Shown here one piece after another: positions 56,175-63,523 of a stretch of DNA of 64,000 nt. The position numbers and the translations under genes are program-made. The DNA lies in NCBI GenBank assembly GCA_016934985.1, contig JAFGRU010000053.1, positions 1 to 64,000 of the forward strand, read 5' to 3'. The notes beneath the pieces are model-generated. The model was given only the letters and a program-made list of their open reading frames with translations. It did not search any database and had not been told where the DNA came from. The stretch is from Deltaproteobacteria bacterium. GTDB lineage: Bacteria > Desulfobacterota > Desulfuromonadia > Desulfuromonadales > JAAYDE01. The number at the start of each line of letters is the position of its first letter. Within the stretch, counting starts at the first letter, position 1.

Positions 56175-56207
56175 CCATTATTTTTCTTTTCAGTGGAGGC
56201 TAAGTTA

Positions 56208-56615
56208 ATGAATTTACCGAAAATTGGCGACCCAGTGACAACCGAGTATGCCATAGAGTTATGTCAGCATTTTGGATTTGATTATCTGGTTGAGCGTCTT
56301 GAAGCTTATCCCGAGGATTATAAGGAATGGGTGTTTGACGGGGCCTCTATGATTCCGGATAACCTTTTTTCAAAATTGTTCAAGATCCCCAATCTGACCG
56401 AAATTGCTTTGAGGCACGATCTCAAATATGCCTACGGTGCTTCGGGGGATAATCGGGAAAAGTTAAAAGCTGACCTGGAGTTCGCCCTGGAAGTTTTGAA
56501 TGATGGTGCTTCCGCAGAAATGACCAAGCTGATGTTCACCGCCGTCGATGTGGGCGGAAAGGAAATCCTGAAAACCAGTTTTTCCTGGGGTTTCGCGCGT
56601 AAAAAGAAAAAATAA
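56208..56615 (+). CDS. Hypothetical protein
   Basis: A 135-residue protein from ATG 56208, with GTGGAGG upstream; the frame from 56193 lacks a site. It is acidic and helical with a conserved-looking core SLFKIPNLTEIALRHDLKYA-type region (IALRHDLKYAYGASG) and a Lys-rich end. The HDLKY pattern is reminiscent of phage-type phospholipase-like HDxxY motifs, but the evidence is thin. It follows rnr by 33 bases and is probably co-transcribed. Confidence 0.6.
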   Translation: MNLPKIGDPVTTEYAIELCQHFGFDYLVERLEAYPEDYKEWVFDGASMIPDNLFSKLFKIPNLTEIALRHDLKYAYGASGDNREKLKADLEFALEVLNDGASAEMTKLMFTAVDVGGKEILKTSFSWGFARKKKK

Positions 56616-56641
56616 AGGACGGGCAAAAACCCGTCCTTTAA
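56614..56641 (+). terminator. Rho-independent terminator
   Basis: GGACGGG-CAAAAA-CCCGTCC followed by TTTAAAA right after the hypothetical-protein stop; it ends the rnr transcript. Confidence 0.85.
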
Positions 56642-56701: not shown

Positions 56702-57280
56702 TTACATGGGCGTCATCCAGAAGATGTCCATGTCGATCCCAAAGGTGATAACCCCCACCACGACGCCCTTGTCTTTGACCGGAACGTTGACGTGTGCCAG
56801 AAAAGCCTTGGCGCTTTTGTCAAAACTTACATCATCGACAAAAACCGCGTTTCTCTGAAAAGGTCTCTGGAATTTTTTCTCGTCGCCCTGCCAGTAGTCA
56901 GAGGTTTTGTCGGAGAGGGCTACAAGGGCGCCCTGATTATCCATCAGAAATATTTCTTTGAAGAAATACTGGGTATCGCGGATGCCGGCCAGATGTTTGC
57001 CCATGGGCGAATCCATTCGCTCTTTGACATAGGATGGGATGCCATCGGAAGCGATCCATTTCTCATCCAGCTTTTTTATGTCATCCAGGGATTTGTTTTT
57101 TGCATTTTCAACGACAACTGCTTTGACAATAGCTGGATCGGCAGCCAATTGGGTCAGCACTGTCTCCGCATATTTTTTTACCTTCTGTGTCGCTGTTTCG
57201 GCCAGGCAATAACCGCTGCCCAGAAATAATACGGTAAGAGTAATGCCCAGCAAGGACACAAGAATTTTTTTAACCGACAT
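56702..57280 (-). CDS. Secreted PDC/Cache-like sensor protein, paralogue A
   Basis: A 192-residue protein with a signal peptide (ILVSLLGITLTVLFLGSGYC, cleavage near CLA-ETA) and one soluble PDC-type domain; there is no membrane anchor beyond the signal or output domain. Landmarks are WIASDGIPSYVKERMDSPMG, IFLMDNQGALVALSDKTSDY-WQGDE and a final VVVGVITFGIDMD. These motifs are shared with the product of 62954-63523. PDC domains bind small ligands such as organic acids. It sits 168 bases after the HAMP receptor gene; AAGGAG precedes the ATG. Confidence 0.8.
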   Translation of the reverse strand: MSVKKILVSLLGITLTVLFLGSGYCLAETATQKVKKYAETVLTQLAADPAIVKAVVVENAKNKSLDDIKKLDEKWIASDGIPSYVKERMDSPMGKHLAGIRDTQYFFKEIFLMDNQGALVALSDKTSDYWQGDEKKFQRPFQRNAVFVDDVSFDKSAKAFLAHVNVPVKDKGVVVGVITFGIDMDIFWMTPM

Positions 57281-57448
57281 GATTTTTACTCCTTATATTT
57301 CTTGTCAACTGAGATTGAATTATACCTTTTAGGCAACCCGGAAATTTTTCCCAAAACCTTATTCCCTTTCAGGTGTTTAACCAGACACTAAACACCTTCA
57401 TTGGTTGCTGAAATCCATACAAATCCAGAAAAAAATTAGAGTAATCGA

Positions 57449-58339
57449 TCATTTCTGGCTGAGTTTTGTCATGGCCACTTTGAGGCTGACGCGCAGTCGC
57501 TCGAGAACGTCCGCCAATCTGCCGATCTCGTCCTTGGAACTATGGGTGATTTGCTGATTAACATTGCCGTCGGCCAGGTCGGATGCGATCTGGGTGAATT
57601 TCTTCAGGGGTGCCAGGGCCGAGTTCACGACGATGAAAACCAGGACGGCGGATACGGCCAGAATGGCTGCCATAATGGTAACCAGGGCAATCGTCAGGTT
57701 TTTCTGTGCCATGCGGGCTTCGTCAGGGTTAAAACCGACGCGGAAGTTGCCCCAGTGTTTGCCTTTGATGAAAATTGGGGAGGACACGTCGAGCATATCG
57801 CCGTAAACTTCGTGCTTATAGGTTTGGAAGAATCCTTCTTCCTGATTCTGGGCGGCTTTAAGACCAACAGGGTCGTTGAAGATTCGCTTGGTTCGGTTGC
57901 CGGCACGGTCCTGGTCTTTATTGCCGGTCAGCGGTTTCTGAAACCGGGTATTGTGGGTAGGAACATAGCCGTTACGGTCAATGGCGTAGGCATAAAGAAT
58001 ACTCTTGTCCTTGAGAAATTCGTCCTGCATGGCCAGAAGTGCCTTGTCGAGATAAAAATCGTACATGGTGTGATACTTGGCCGGGTCAAAGCCGGGAATT
58101 TCGAGATAATTAGTGTCGAAGGCATCTCTTTCTTCCAGAACTTCGTTATCAATAGCCTCTTCAAAAATGTTCCCAACCAGTTTAGCGCCGATTAGAGATT
58201 CGATTCTTCCGCGTTCCCGAAGCTGGGTTTCTAAACTTTGACTCTGCTTCTGGATGAGATAAAACGCTCCGGCAGCAATAACAATTAACAACGCAAGACA
58301 TACTTGGAAGGCTACTTTGATACCCACTTTCTTAAACAT
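57449..58339 (-). CDS. Membrane Cache-HAMP receptor without output domain
   Basis: A 296-residue protein: an N-terminal helix (VAFQVCLALLIVIAAGAFYL), a periplasmic Cache-like domain (about 35-205) with GYVPTHNTRFQKPLTG and KGKHWGNFRVGF, a second helix (about 212-235) and a HAMP domain (about 236-290; NSALAPLKKFTQIASDLADG, KDEIGRLADVLERLR). It stops just after HAMP; there is no kinase, cyclase or chemotaxis signalling domain. The receptor must therefore signal through a partner. AAAGGAG precedes the ATG. It lies 71 bases downstream of its soluble paralogue. Confidence 0.85.
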   Translation of the reverse strand: MFKKVGIKVAFQVCLALLIVIAAGAFYLIQKQSQSLETQLRERGRIESLIGAKLVGNIFEEAIDNEVLEERDAFDTNYLEIPGFDPAKYHTMYDFYLDKALLAMQDEFLKDKSILYAYAIDRNGYVPTHNTRFQKPLTGNKDQDRAGNRTKRIFNDPVGLKAAQNQEEGFFQTYKHEVYGDMLDVSSPIFIKGKHWGNFRVGFNPDEARMAQKNLTIALVTIMAAILAVSAVLVFIVVNSALAPLKKFTQIASDLADGNVNQQITHSSKDEIGRLADVLERLRVSLKVAMTKLSQK

Positions 58340-58410
58340 TTACATTCTCCTTTGCCAAAAAGTAAAATTGACCAGATAGTCAAAATTTGAAAATCTTTTT
58401 TCCCAGATAA

Positions 58411-59019
58411 TTATCTGTCACGATAACCGATGCGAATCGCACCCCAATGACGGTTTTTCACAACAATCGGAACCGACATGTCGGTTATGATCCTTTTTCC
58501 TTTGAAAGCTTTGACCTGCATCAATTCAGGGTCGGTATTGCGTGAGGCCTTTAGGCCCATGCGATTGGTATACATGCGCTTGCTCTGGTTCCATTTATAA
58601 TCATGGTCGGGGTCCCCGGTAAGCGGTTGAGAAAACCTCGTATTGTGGGTTGGCAGGTAACCGTTTTTATCGACGGCGATTACATAGATAAGCCGGGGGT
58701 CTTTTTCCAGATATTTGTCCAGGATCGGGCGGATGATTCCAGTGGCCAGGTTATCGTAAGCCGTGTGGAACTTTTGGGGGTCGGTATCGGGAATCGGCAC
58801 GTAAAAAGTGTCAAAAAGTTGAGCGACATTCAGTTGGCCGGAACTCAACAAGAGATCAAACTGTTCCAGAATTTCTTTGGCGCAGTCTTTGGCAATCTTT
58901 GCCATATTCTTATCCAGAGGAGTCATCTCTTCCGCAGCCCGCAACGGAGTCGCATGTAAACAGATCAGCAGGGCCAGACAGGCAATCAGCACGTCGGTCC
59001 ATAAGCGTTGCAGTTTCAT
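58411..59019 (-). CDS. Secreted Cache-like sensor, soluble paralogue of the HAMP receptor
   Basis: A 202-residue protein with a signal peptide (VLIACLALLICLHATPLRAA) and one Cache-like domain. It shares with the downstream HAMP receptor the pattern GYLPTHNTRFSQPLTG, an N-x2-KR segment, GLKASRN and KNRHWGAIRIGY, but has no transmembrane helix or HAMP domain. It looks like a free periplasmic ligand-binding unit that could dock on the receptor. Its ATG overlaps the roadblock gene's stop as TGATG, so they are translationally coupled. Confidence 0.8.
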   Translation of the reverse strand: MKLQRLWTDVLIACLALLICLHATPLRAAEEMTPLDKNMAKIAKDCAKEILEQFDLLLSSGQLNVAQLFDTFYVPIPDTDPQKFHTAYDNLATGIIRPILDKYLEKDPRLIYVIAVDKNGYLPTHNTRFSQPLTGDPDHDYKWNQSKRMYTNRMGLKASRNTDPELMQVKAFKGKRIITDMSVPIVVKNRHWGAIRIGYRDR

Positions 59020-59396
59020 CAGTGTTCCTCCTCTTTCGACGTATTGTTGGTTTTCTTTTGATTTTTAAGGTTGAAAAGAAACCTGCTAACATCTTCAATT
59101 AACTGGGTTTGATTGGAATCAATTTTTTGAAGGATCCCGATGTAGTATTTATCCAGGGCGAAGATGATAAGATTTTGATTTTGAGGTCTGATGTAAATAA
59201 GGTAACCAAAATCGCTGAAACCAAGAGTTTTTTGAATAGCTACAGAATGAAAACCTCCAATGGTCACCAGGGATGTCAGCTTTTCCGGGTTTTCCAGGTT
59301 GTGAATGACGATCTGGCCATCGTTACGGGCAACGATATAGTTTCCGACGCCCTTGATCTGCTCAATTCGATTGGCGAAACGCTGGACTCCAGTCAT
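59019..59396 (-). CDS. Roadblock/LC7-like protein (short)
   Basis: A 125-residue protein with the alternating strand-helix pattern of roadblock/LC7 domains (VGNYIVARNDGQIVIHNLEN at the start, FGYLIYIRPQNQNLIIFALD later) and a charged C-terminal tail ending in KNQKKTNNTSKEEEH. The match is by pattern, not a strict motif. Roadblock proteins form dimeric scaffolds that control small GTPases such as MglA; no GTPase is encoded in this window. AAAGGAG precedes the ATG. Confidence 0.6.
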   Translation of the reverse strand: MTGVQRFANRIEQIKGVGNYIVARNDGQIVIHNLENPEKLTSLVTIGGFHSVAIQKTLGFSDFGYLIYIRPQNQNLIIFALDKYYIGILQKIDSNQTQLIEDVSRFLFNLKNQKKTNNTSKEEEH

Positions 59397-59416
59397 GGCA
59401 CATCACTCCTTTTTTC

Positions 59417-60085
59417 TTATGCAGCGGGTAAAAAGCTTTGCACCAGTTCCTGATAACGCTTCGCTTTTTCTGAATCGTCAATTTCTTGGCACAAACTGTC
59501 AACAAGTTCAGGCAGATCGGATGGTGTTGGGGCACGTCCGGCTGCCCACCTGGCAACGGTATCATCAAAAACGATGAGGGCCATGGGACCGAGTATTTTA
59601 GCGAGCAATTTTGACATCTCTTCAAGCGGTTTTGCCAAAGGACCGTTTTCAAAAGATGGGGTAGCAACTGCTTCGGTTGGAACTGGATCTTCCACCTCTT
59701 CGAGTTGGGGTTCTTCCTGAACTGCAGGGGGAGAAGTTTCCTCAGCCTCGACCCGGCTGGTTACTTCTTCCAGCGCCATGTTCAGCGACATGGCCAGAAC
59801 CCCAAGATTCATGCCCGGATCACAGACAGCCATGACGTAATCAGAGGGGGTGAACTGTCTGCAGAACAGCAGGGACTCTTCGTAATTGATAAAAACTTCA
59901 ACCAAATCGGCAAAGTTCTGCTTTCCTGCGGTGTGGATTTTAATCAGACTTTTGGTGATTTCGGCGATGCGCTCGGGTTTGAAAATCGAGGGAAGATTAC
60001 TGCAACGCACCCCTTCGTTAGTACGGAAAACATAAGCACCAATCACGCCTGGAATGGATTTAAGATCGTCAATTAACTGTTGCAT
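59417..60085 (-). CDS. Roadblock/LC7-like protein with C-terminal extension
   Basis: A 222-residue protein. Residues 1-118 resemble a roadblock/LC7 domain (LKSIPGVIGAYVFRTNEGVR, then LLFCRQFTPSDYVMAVCDPG). A Glu/Pro-rich linker (about 120-150) leads to a helical C-terminal domain with the GPMALIVFDDTVARWAAG block, which I recall next to bacterial roadblock/response-regulator proteins. AAGGAG precedes the ATG. It lies 22 bases after the response regulator gene and 20 bases before the short roadblock gene. Confidence 0.7.
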   Translation of the reverse strand: MQQLIDDLKSIPGVIGAYVFRTNEGVRCSNLPSIFKPERIAEITKSLIKIHTAGKQNFADLVEVFINYEESLLFCRQFTPSDYVMAVCDPGMNLGVLAMSLNMALEEVTSRVEAEETSPPAVQEEPQLEEVEDPVPTEAVATPSFENGPLAKPLEEMSKLLAKILGPMALIVFDDTVARWAAGRAPTPSDLPELVDSLCQEIDDSEKAKRYQELVQSFLPAA

Positions 60086-60107
60086 GGTTTCTCCTTGTGC
60101 GATTTTG

Positions 60108-61235
60108 TCAAGACGTTTCGAATAACGAGTTCGACATCTGATCGAGAATTTCGTTCAGCTTTACGCCTTTGTTCAAAGAAAGAACCACCTGACATTTTCC
60201 GCGCTTGAAGAGCAGTTTGGAATTACGGCTTGCCGTGGTGAATTGAATATATCGAAACTTATTCCCTTCCAGTGATTTGCCCAGAGTCTGACACTGGGTC
60301 AGATAAAATGCCGGGTCAACCTTGGCCAGGGAGCAGGCGTCGGAACTTTGGTGTTGCAAGAAGTTGGCCTCATCGAAAATGGCAAACTCCCGGATAGCGA
60401 CGGACTTCTTAAGATTGACCAGAAGCTTTTCAGCGAAAGGGGGTTTTGGAGGTGGCGTTGATTTGCCGACAGTAGCATCCGCTTTGGCTGTTTTCGCCGG
60501 AGGCTCGAAAGATGGGTCCAGGGCTGGTTCAGGGGCCGATTTGGATTTGGCTTGGAACTCTGGAGCATTTTCCTCGTCCTTGATTCTGAAAGCTTCCAGA
60601 AGGACAAAATCGAGGGGTTTTTCGATTTTTTTCTCACTCCGGCGGCAGACGTTGTCCATTTCAATATCGGCGTCTTCCCAGACCATAATTTCCATGGCTG
60701 CTTTTTCTCCCTGGAGATTGGATGTCTGAGCGTCGTAGAGATCGCCTTTTTCAATAAAGAGGAAGCCTGATTTATCTTTGGAGCTGACTTTTAAGGTACA
60801 GCTCTTTTTTTCCAGGTGGACCATCTGCAAGAAAGCCGGCAGGGTGATCCCGCGGATAAAACTACGCGAATTATCCGACAGGGCCTGTTCGATCTTTTGG
60901 GTGAGGGCGTCAAAATCGAGGGGTTTTTCCAGGTAGTGAAAGGCCATCATATTGGAAATTTTTTCCTCGATTTCCGGCGTACCGAAAGCAGTCATTACAA
61001 TAACCGGCAGGTAGGGGTCCTGTTTGCTGACATGGGCCAGTAATTCGAAGCCGTCCATAACCGGCATATGAAGATCTGTAACCAGGAGGTCGATTTTTTC
61101 TTTTTTCAGAACAGCGAGGGCTTCTTGACCATTGTTGGCGCAAATGACGTTCAACTGGTCGCTGTAAGTGGCGATGCCGTCTTGCAGGCTTTCCAGAAAA
61201 GGTCTTTCATCGTCGACGATAAGAATTTTTTTCAT
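60108..61235 (-). CDS. Response regulator with DUF4388-like and C-terminal domains
   Basis: A 375-residue protein. Residues 1-120 form a receiver domain with Asp8-Asp9, phospho-acceptor Asp54 (LLVTDLHMPVMDG) and Lys104 (YLEKPLD). Residues about 130-225 match the DUF4388/PATAN-like pattern (GITLPAFLQMVHLEKKSCTL, then GFLFIEKGDLYDAQ). A Pro/Ala-rich linker leads to a C-terminal domain (about 285-375). There is no DNA-binding or enzymatic output, so it acts by protein contact. It overlaps the kinase by 4 bases (ATGA). Confidence 0.85.
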   Translation of the reverse strand: MKKILIVDDERPFLESLQDGIATYSDQLNVICANNGQEALAVLKKEKIDLLVTDLHMPVMDGFELLAHVSKQDPYLPVIVMTAFGTPEIEEKISNMMAFHYLEKPLDFDALTQKIEQALSDNSRSFIRGITLPAFLQMVHLEKKSCTLKVSSKDKSGFLFIEKGDLYDAQTSNLQGEKAAMEIMVWEDADIEMDNVCRRSEKKIEKPLDFVLLEAFRIKDEENAPEFQAKSKSAPEPALDPSFEPPAKTAKADATVGKSTPPPKPPFAEKLLVNLKKSVAIREFAIFDEANFLQHQSSDACSLAKVDPAFYLTQCQTLGKSLEGNKFRYIQFTTASRNSKLLFKRGKCQVVLSLNKGVKLNEILDQMSNSLFETS

Positions 61236-62377
61236 GCTTCACGTCCATCCTGAGTTTGGGGCTGGTTTTCAATTTTTTCTCCCGCAGTTGTTTTAACCAG
61301 CGGAATAAGAAGCCTGACCGTGGTTCCAACATCCTCACTGCTTTGAACAGCGATGCTGACATTCATTCTTGCCAGCAGTTTCTGGGTGATAACCAAGCCC
61401 AGACCATTGCCGTGGGCTTTGTTAGTGTAAAAGGGCTGAAACAGGTTTTTCTGTTGCTCCGGTGACATGCCGCAGCCGTTGTCCGCAATCTCCAAGCCGA
61501 TATAATCGTCTCCCAATTTTGGTAAGATTCGGATCTGGGGGGAGGGGCGTCCATTCAAAGCGTCGGCCGCATTGGCGAGAATATTCAACAGGGCCTGGTT
61601 CATGGCACGTGAATCGATAAAAACCGAGGTCCGATTGGGAACGGAGGCGATGCTCAAGGTGATTTTTTTTTCTTTGAAATCCCTCGACACCAGGTCCAAA
61701 AAGCTGTTCAGGTAAGCCCCGAAATTTACCGGCTTGATATCGAATTTTTCGTACATGCTGAAATTTTTCAGGGATTTCAACATGAATTCCATTCTTTTTA
61801 CTTCGGCGACGATACGGTCAATGTAATTAAAGACCGTTTCTCTCGAAAAAGAGTCGAAATTTTTTTTCAGGACACTGATGGTCATTTTGATGGAGTTGAG
61901 AGGATTGCCCATTTCGTGCCGAATTCCGGAAAAAACCAGCCCAATATTGTCCATGGTGTTGACCGCTTGGGCGATGGACTCCAGGCGAATTTTTTCGGTG
62001 ATGTCCCGGATGAAAATACAGAGATGGCAATCAGAAACCGGATAGGTTGAAAATCCGAGCATTCTCTGACCATGCTGAACGACCTGGGAGGACTCGGAGT
62101 ATGCGGGCATAACTGGCTTGGGTCGGACAGTGTTTTCTGCGAACAGGTAATTCTCCAACGTTTTGTAGGACAATTGATTGGCCGATAGTTGAAGAATATT
62201 CAGAGAAGTTGCGTTGCAGAACTCTAGGGTTTTTTCCCTGGAATTGACAATAATGATGCCGATATCAATACCATTCAATATCTCCTCGAAAAACCATTCC
62301 CTTTCCGGCTCAGAACTACCGTAAGGTTGATTATCACCCGGGAAGGCCGAGTGGCGTATGGGTTCGGAAGTTTTCAT
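61232..62377 (-). CDS. PAS-domain sensor histidine kinase
   Basis: A 381-residue soluble kinase. A PAS domain lies at about 30-130 (NGIDIGIIIVNSREKTLEFC), the phospho-acceptor His154 in SGIRHEMGNPLNSIKMT, and the ATPase domain has the N-box LLNILANAADAL, G1 DNGCGMSP and G2 HGNGLGLVI. There is no transmembrane segment, so periplasmic signals must reach it through partners. It heads the operon and phosphorylates the coupled response regulator. The start at 62377 has only a weak GAGAA; a sigma54-like promoter lies about 105 bases upstream. Confidence 0.9.
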   Translation of the reverse strand: MKTSEPIRHSAFPGDNQPYGSSEPEREWFFEEILNGIDIGIIIVNSREKTLEFCNATSLNILQLSANQLSYKTLENYLFAENTVRPKPVMPAYSESSQVVQHGQRMLGFSTYPVSDCHLCIFIRDITEKIRLESIAQAVNTMDNIGLVFSGIRHEMGNPLNSIKMTISVLKKNFDSFSRETVFNYIDRIVAEVKRMEFMLKSLKNFSMYEKFDIKPVNFGAYLNSFLDLVSRDFKEKKITLSIASVPNRTSVFIDSRAMNQALLNILANAADALNGRPSPQIRILPKLGDDYIGLEIADNGCGMSPEQQKNLFQPFYTNKAHGNGLGLVITQKLLARMNVSIAVQSSEDVGTTVRLLIPLVKTTAGEKIENQPQTQDGREA

Positions 62378-62480
62378 GAATTTTGAGTTCTCATTAAAGC
62401 AGCTCTTAATAAAGAACCGGTTTAAAAAGGGGAAAATTTACCTAAAGGTGTCACATATTATTAAATTAGCTCCTCCTTTC

Positions 62481-62496
62481 TGCAAATTAGATGCCG
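62481..62496 (-). promoter_or_regulatory. sigma54 (-24/-12) promoter candidate for the kinase operon
   Basis: On the minus strand CGGCATC-TAAT-TTGCA matches the TGGCACG-N4-TTGCW consensus, with the GG and GC dinucleotides exactly ten bases apart and a perfect TTGCA at -12. The start would be about 92 bases before the kinase ATG. Confidence 0.55.
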
Positions 62497-62819
62497 CTTT
62501 ATAGTTGCTTTTTTGCGGGGCCCTGGCTGAGAAAATTTGTCATTTCCGTTTGCAGTGTTACGACAAAAATGAATTTAAGAAAAAATAATTAATTATTATA
62601 GGGAGGTTCTAATATTTTAATACATTTGCCTTTCCTTGATATTGATAAAACCTTTAGATTTGATAGAATTTTTCACGGTAGAAAAATGACAATTTTCTGC
62701 ATATTTTGGTCGAAATTGTGAATTTTTTTGTCAAAAATGTAATGTGTTCCCATTGAGTTGTTAAAAATTTGACATAAAATTCGGGTGATAATTGATTAAA
62801 TTACAAAAATTAAAAAAAA

Positions 62820-62836
62820 TGGCTCGACACCTGCAT
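62820..62836 (+). promoter_or_regulatory. sigma54 (-24/-12) promoter candidate for PDC paralogue B
   Basis: TGGCTCG-ACAC-CTGCAT matches the sigma54 consensus with correct GG-N10-GC spacing and two mismatches. The transcript would have a leader of about 110 bases before the ATG at 62954. Confidence 0.5.
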
Positions 62837-62953
62837 GTCGTTCACCCTGAAAATGTGTCACGACTCTTGACAACCTTCCAGGGTCAATCCTCAGTCCATT
62901 TAAAGGGCGCCCAGGTTTTATCCAAAAATAAATGGTGACAAGGAGAAATGTTC

Positions 62954-63523
62954 ATGTTTGGCAAAAATCACTTTATGCCTGTACTCGCTGTCCTCTTTTT
63001 TGTTCTGGTTGTCAGCATCAATTTTTCGTTTGCTGAAGGTCCTCCACCGGCAGTTGTTGAACTTGCAAACAGCAAACTTGCCGAAATAGGTAGGGACCCT
63101 TTAATTGTCGCCGCTGTTAAAGCTCAAAATGCAAAGGGACAAACCCTTGATCAAATCAAGGCCAGGGACAAGGAATGGATTGCTTCTCAGACACTTCAGC
63201 CGTATATGCGGGAAATGATCAATTCTCCCACGGGAAAACATCTTTCCAATATTTTTTATAGTACGCAGTATTTTATGGAAATCTTTGTCATGGATAATCA
63301 GGGTGCCAACGTCGCCATGACCAGCCGGACCTCAGACTATTGGCAGGGAGACGAATCCAAGTTCAAAAAAGCCTATAATGGCGGCAAAGGAGGCATTTTT
63401 ATTGACGAAGTCGAATTTGATTTGAGCTGTATGGCTTTTTTGATTCAGGTTTCGGTTCCGGTCATGGATGGGAATAAAGCTATCGGGGCCATTACTTTCG
63501 GGATTGATTCCGATAGAATTTAG
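62954..63523 (+). CDS. Secreted PDC/Cache-like sensor protein, paralogue B
   Basis: A 189-residue protein. ATG 62954 is chosen because AAGGAG is eight bases away; ATG 62948 is too close to it. It has a signal peptide (PVLAVLFFVLVVSINFSFAE) and one PDC-type domain. It shares with the 56702-57280 product KEWIAS/EKWIAS, NSPTGKHL/DSPMGKHL, QYFMEIFVMDNQGA and TSDYWQGDE, and ends ITFGIDSDRI. It has no anchor or output domain. It diverges from the kinase operon, flanking it on the far side from paralogue A. Confidence 0.8.
   Translation: MFGKNHFMPVLAVLFFVLVVSINFSFAEGPPPAVVELANSKLAEIGRDPLIVAAVKAQNAKGQTLDQIKARDKEWIASQTLQPYMREMINSPTGKHLSNIFYSTQYFMEIFVMDNQGANVAMTSRTSDYWQGDESKFKKAYNGGKGGIFIDEVEFDLSCMAFLIQVSVPVMDGNKAIGAITFGIDSDRI

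Follow-up and report, generated by a model that had tools for sequence, protein, structure and literature searches.

Gene organisation of the locus

The DNA analysed, referred to below as the window, was a stretch of 64,000 nucleotides from a Deltaproteobacteria bacterium (assembly GCA_016934985.1, contig JAFGRU010000053.1). The subject of this analysis is a minus-strand run of genes from 62377 to 57449. It encodes, in this order, a histidine kinase (HK), a response regulator (RR), two roadblock-like proteins (RB1 and RB2), a secreted protein and a membrane receptor that ends shortly after its HAMP domain. An earlier note, made from the sequence alone, had described this run as a split sensory system, and its gene order and open frames were confirmed. 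The two overlaps it listed are real: HK and RR share 4 bases (ATGA, 61232-61235), and RB2 and the secreted protein share 1 base (TGATG, 59019). The gaps between RR and RB1 and between RB1 and RB2 are short, and 71 bases separate the secreted protein from the receptor. The genes and domains of the run are as follows.

61232-62377, minus strand: HK, a soluble PAS-HisKA-HATPase histidine kinase with the H-box HEMGNPLNS (open frame, Pfam)
60108-61235, minus strand: RR, response regulator (open frame, Pfam Response_reg and DUF4388)
60888-61226, minus strand: receiver domain of RR (Pfam Response_reg)
60570-60854, minus strand: DUF4388/PATAN domain of RR (Pfam DUF4388)
60108-60434, minus strand: C-terminal roadblock-like domain of RR, the third in the operon (hhalign to RB2)
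59417-60085, minus strand: RB1, whole gene, roadblock-like (open frame)
59735-60085, minus strand: N-terminal roadblock/LC7 domain of RB1 (AlphaFold2 model, Foldseek, profile match to 7yh1)
59420-59656, minus strand: C-terminal four-helix STAC-like domain of RB1 with an LGPMA motif, proposed to dock the HAMP receptor (model, profile search)
59019-59396, minus strand: RB2, a single roadblock/LC7 domain (profile search, model)
58411-59019, minus strand: secreted protein with a signal peptide and no membrane anchor (open frame, similarity to the receptor ectodomain)
57449-58339, minus strand: HAMP-terminated receptor, consisting of a transmembrane segment, a periplasmic sensor, a second transmembrane segment and HAMP, followed by the end of the chain (open frame, Pfam)
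57482-57628, minus strand: HAMP domain of the receptor (Pfam)
57482-57499, minus strand: C-terminal signature R-L-R-V-S-L of the receptor (R[LM]xxS), where the HAMP match ends

Conservation of the gene order

The order HK-RR-RB1-RB2, with HK first, was present in all of the 30 best loci, a set that includes the window's own locus. This is far beyond chance. All six genes were kept in order in about 17 loci, the window included, and at L185-L191 the secreted protein and the receptor were located apart from the remaining genes. Relatives of RB1 were detected in 93 of the 244 class genomes; many weaker matches extended over the roadblock half only. The earlier note had proposed a search for this gene order across genomes; the genes were found kept together, and the split signalling system is conserved as a unit and wider than had been supposed. 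The continuation of the contig past the window was also examined, and no output partner for the receptor was recognisable there.

A paralogous second cluster, composed of a HAMP-terminated receptor, RB2 and RB1, was observed at L138:9424-12173 and L241-L246, with the RR-PATAN gene not adjoining. In L138, its receptor carried a CxxCH motif and the cluster held an additional TPR-OmpA-like protein.

The HAMP-terminated receptor and its secreted paralogue

The receptor comprises 296 residues. Pfam HAMP matched residues 238-286 (1.6e-9), the chain stops 10 residues later, and HAMP is the sole cytosolic part. Its relatives fell into two groups. HAMP-only receptors shared 49% identity or more and had frames near 300 amino acids, whereas effector-fused relatives such as chemoreceptors shared 43% or less and had frames mostly near 580-830 amino acids. 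All 40 HAMP-terminated receptors inspected ended in R-[LM]-x-x-S. In the effector-fused relatives read, FN[KQ]M replaced this motif. The conserved tail points to a likely contact with a partner domain. Pfam HAMP was found in 39 of the 40 receptors. Their sensor families differed and were of at least eight kinds, which indicates that sensors are swapped while the HAMP end and the STAC-like neighbour stay. Two chemoreceptors (L357:4208-6508 and L358:5010-7298) carried, at the C-terminus and past the signalling part, a second copy of the same sensor-like domain.

The protein described earlier as secreted and Cache-like is indeed secreted. Its Cache assignment is weak and no Pfam family was matched; it is paralogous to the receptor's own ectodomain (36% identity), and it adjoins the receptor in many loci.

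Kinase, regulator and roadblock domains

Pfam domains of HK were PAS_8 (weak), HisKA and HATPase_c. The two-component hallmarks were all present, namely the H-box and ATPase domain of HK and the receiver aspartate and lysine of RR, the latter two (D54 and K104) being invariant among relatives. A scan with NCBIfam matched the window genes with generic kinase and regulator models only. The receiver-DUF4388 architecture of RR was confirmed, and a DNA-binding domain was absent from its domain set, in agreement with the earlier reading. At L144 and L145, the RR receiver has diverged and lost its second acidic residue, and no kinase was found near these loci.

The description of RB1 and RB2 as roadblock/LC7-like proteins held for the fold and was incomplete in two respects: RB1 carries an additional C-terminal four-helix domain, and RR contains a third roadblock-like domain. 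AlphaFold2 models of the N-terminal half of RB1 and of RB2 showed the alpha-bb-alpha-bbb-alpha fold with a mean pLDDT of about 89, and roadblock/MglB structures were the top Foldseek matches of both. The RB1 profile matched the archaeal roadblock protein 7yh1 (E 1.2e-6) and the RB2 profile matched dynein roadblock chains (E 4e-8). Neither window protein was matched by a Pfam model, the cut-off of Robl_LC7 not being reached, and 15 of 24 RB2 relatives showed Robl_LC7 at E 0.1 or better. RB2 and the C-terminal domain of RR were related with an hhalign probability of 96.5. The N-terminal domain of RB1 aligned weakly with both, and its kinship to them therefore rests on the fold. No GTPase gene was recognised in or beside the window operon; a canonical MglB-MglA pair is encoded on another contig of the genome, unlinked to the cluster. 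At L127:7910-9376, RR and RB1 form one frame of 489 codons (receiver-PATAN-roadblock-STAC), either a natural fusion or the product of a lost stop codon.

The STAC-like tail of RB1

In the AlphaFold2 model, the tail of RB1 consisted of four helices (residues 151-165, 169-181, 188-201 and 205-218). An invariant GPxA motif, LGPMA in the window, joined the first two, its glycine and proline being invariant in 59 sequences. The tail domain matched no Pfam family. In profile searches against PDB, Af1502 of Archaeoglobus fulgidus was the top or a near-top match for whole RB1 (E 0.084) and the top match for the tail domain alone (E 0.014). With a broader alignment of RB1 tails it was again the top match at E 0.0047, followed by the next at 0.35.

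The neighbouring archaeal receptor Af1503 was the source of the first HAMP structure and remains a reference for HAMP signalling. According to its depositors, Af1502 is a STAC domain in which four helices form a bundle and an LGPx(x)A motif joins helices 1 and 2, and it is encoded in archaea beside Af1503-like receptors in which HAMP is the only cytosolic part (PMC4834066). The RB1 tail and Af1502 agree in helix count, motif position and gene neighbourhood. The sequence evidence for their relationship is suggestive, not decisive.

Association of the STAC-like domain with HAMP-terminated receptors

A phylum-wide search with a profile restricted to the RB1 tail matched 58 of 395 genomes. Forty new phylum loci from this search served as an out-of-sample set. 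At 32 of them, a HAMP-terminated receptor was encoded within 4 kb of the STAC-like domain; most of these receptors lay 0-250 bases off on the same strand and ended 0-9 residues past HAMP. Adding 12 more loci from the class brought the count to 41 of 52. As controls, random regions of the same genomes held one HAMP-terminated receptor in 373 kb, and unrelated loci held none in 1.02 Mb. About one receptor would be expected across the 40 loci at the control rate, compared with the 32 observed. The single control match sits in a genome whose STAC genes had no receptor neighbour.

Counting the HAMP-only receptor of the window type among the 244 class genomes, 35 had receptor and STAC, three had the receptor only, 16 had STAC only and 190 had neither. 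In several of the 16 STAC-only genomes, RB1 was accompanied by a HAMP-terminated receptor whose ectodomain was of another type (L127, L134, L137, L138, L140-L142). No HAMP-only receptor was found among the examined neighbours of RB1-like genes with a different C-terminus (L147-L153). In L146, from a genome related to that set, the STAC tail is present and adjoins a secreted protein and a HAMP-only receptor. The roadblock proteins of L147-L153, with their different C-terminal domain, were paired with a PATAN or receiver-like partner.

Other effectors carrying the domain

The STAC-like domain was also found on effectors other than roadblock proteins. At many phylum loci the adaptor consisted of DUF4388, a winged helix and STAC, DUF4388 being present in 14 of 16 scanned. 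In Bacterium isolate SZAS-1, a Ser/Thr kinase carried a C-terminal STAC-like domain (L347:5293-7373), and its start overlapped the stop codon of a HAMP-terminated Tll0287-like receptor. Two cyanobacterial Ser/Thr kinases (L360:1396-3509 and L361:3-2115) carried two STAC-like domains each and likewise adjoined HAMP-terminated Tll0287-like receptors. Such receptors were present at L362-L365 and L372 of the same cyanobacterial order, with no kinase within the short flank read.

An evenly poised, broader interpretation is that the STAC-like domain acts as a general plug, through which HAMP-terminated receptors of archaea and several bacterial lineages steer separate soluble effectors in trans, with both the effectors (roadblock, PATAN-winged-helix, Ser/Thr kinase) and the sensors being swappable. 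If true, this would constitute a transduction route alongside those of the cis-fused kinase, chemoreceptor and cyclase.

Proposed signalling route and alternatives

On balance, it is probable that the HAMP-terminated receptor signals in trans, via a roadblock-STAC adaptor, to the soluble two-component pair. From the gene content and order, their conservation, the domain identities and the receptor-STAC association, we infer docking, a signalling direction, a roadblock pairing, phosphotransfer and an output as follows. A receptor dimer, perhaps together with the secreted paralogue, would sense a periplasmic signal and the state of the HAMP bundle would shift. Having no output domain of its own, the receptor would pass this change onward from its HAMP end, where the R[LM]xxS tail would hand it to the four-helix STAC-like domain of RB1. 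The roadblock domain of RB1 may pair with RB2, with the roadblock-like domain of RR, or with both. The receptor would thus control a cytosolic platform for the PAS kinase and the receiver-PATAN regulator, which the kinase would phosphorylate. Since RR lacks a DNA-binding domain, its output is probably by protein contact through PATAN or roadblock; an involvement of the unlinked MglA GTPase is a guess. The roadblock proteins, which the earlier note had cast as a scaffold, are probably the adaptor itself, given the published STAC pairing and the STAC-like tail on RB1. The cluster suggests how a sensor that lacks an output part may relay its signal.

Several points weigh against this proposal. 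The sequence similarity between the RB1 tail and Af1502 is weak taken alone, and the STAC profile found no match in one Pseudomonas genome presumed to carry a CbrA-type STAC domain. No receptor was in reach at 8 of the 40 STAC loci, and G156 and G164 had a HAMP-only receptor with no STAC detected. The HAMP profile, derived from HAMP-terminated receptors, is biased towards them and may miss some ordinary HAMP proteins, and the association counts ignore shared ancestry.

A rather unlikely alternative sees RB1 and RB2 as orphan MglB-like proteins that regulate the unlinked MglA GTPase, and the cluster as a polarity or motility input, fed by the receptor through an unspecified route. The canonical pair elsewhere in the genome and the match of both models to MglB structures are consistent with this, and MglB and PATAN genes have been reported as neighbours in a survey of the Ras superfamily (PMC4316618). 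However, the operon has no recognised GTPase gene, and the STAC tail and the HAMP-only receptor would be left unexplained. Such a role can be compatible with the roadblock-STAC adaptor.

Direct action of the receptor on the PAS kinase in trans, in the manner of a split sensor kinase with the roadblock proteins secondary, appears distinctly unlikely. Kinase and regulator do belong to the same tight operon, with their order kept. However, L146 and L243-L246 retained the receptor and RB1 although no matching kinase or regulator adjoined them, L279 and L282 retained the receptor and RB1-STAC without a detected kinase, and kinase genes were near just 6 of the 40 phylum STAC loci. Because some loci keep receptor and RB1-STAC in this way, a direct link from receptor to RB1 is more likely than one from receptor to kinase.

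That the receptor arose by decay of a chemoreceptor or kinase, lost its output and lies by chance beside an unrelated two-component operon is highly improbable: its closest effector-fused relatives do include chemoreceptors with the same ectodomain (L355-L359), but the HAMP-only receptors form a group of their own, keep a specific C-terminal motif and stand beside the STAC domain across the phylum, and an accidentally truncated chemoreceptor was rejected on conservation.

Neighbouring genes

The following features flank the run.

56613-56640, strand not assigned: strong terminator-like hairpin of 12 pairs with a T-run, which could end the minus-strand transcript
56702-57280, minus strand: secreted PDC protein 1 (open frame, Pfam), a neighbour outside the conserved core
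62948-63523, plus strand: secreted PDC protein 2, divergent (open frame, Pfam), a lineage-specific neighbour

The secreted PDC proteins noted previously on both sides are present, and they are dispensable. PDC protein 1 was not found beside the module at other loci, and a relative of PDC protein 2 was confined to L114 and L115, the closest two of the loci. Both were rejected as core parts for want of conservation. A 140-codon frame at 56193-56615 had no Pfam or NCBIfam match; an RNase R-like gene lies on one side of it and the terminator on the other. A reductase-like gene lies beyond the window on the same contig.

Comparison with known systems

In the conservons of Actinomycetota (CvnA-D), one operon likewise encodes a kinase-like membrane protein, a roadblock protein of the MglB type and their partners. 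In contrast, the window has no GTPase or CvnC-type protein, its receptor and kinase are separate chains, and the four conservon core proteins do not include STAC, PATAN or receiver domains. Membership in the conservons was rejected, as the cluster lacks a CvnD GTPase. MglA/MglB with RomR in Myxococcus and the cyanobacterial PATAN-type regulators resemble the window in their roadblock proteins and in receiver-PATAN regulators that lack a DNA-binding output. The window differs from them in having no MglA gene and in possessing a dedicated HAMP-terminated receptor and a STAC-like domain. In the SLC5-STAC histidine kinases CbrA and CrbS, STAC also stands between membrane input and two-component signalling; there it sits in cis between transporter and kinase, whereas in the window it belongs to a different chain from the Cache-like HAMP receptor and is placed in trans.

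None of the papers searched was found to describe a bacterial HAMP-only receptor coupled to proteins of the roadblock, PATAN, receiver and kinase types. The earlier note had stated that no known family described the wiring between receptor and kinase. This was not upheld, as an archaeal precedent for the receptor half has been published, the HAMP-only receptor and STAC pair Af1503/Af1502 (PMC4834066). Both systems have a HAMP-only receptor, a nearby gene for a four-helix domain and (L)GPx(x)A between helices 1 and 2. The archaeal STAC domain stands alone, whereas the bacterial STAC-like domain forms one chain with a roadblock domain and is encoded in the same operon as the receptor, with RB2 and the secreted protein between them. 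The window operon adds RB2, the receiver-PATAN-roadblock regulator, the PAS kinase and the secreted sensor paralogue. It holds no transporter genes, whereas membrane transport neighbours are a published trend, not a requirement, for the Af1503 type. Without a Pfam match of its own, the STAC-like domain can serve as bait for annotating many unannotated adaptors. The partner of Af1503-like receptors had been left open before; a candidate partner domain is here fused to recognisable effectors in bacteria, and the output of HAMP-only receptors thereby becomes directly testable.

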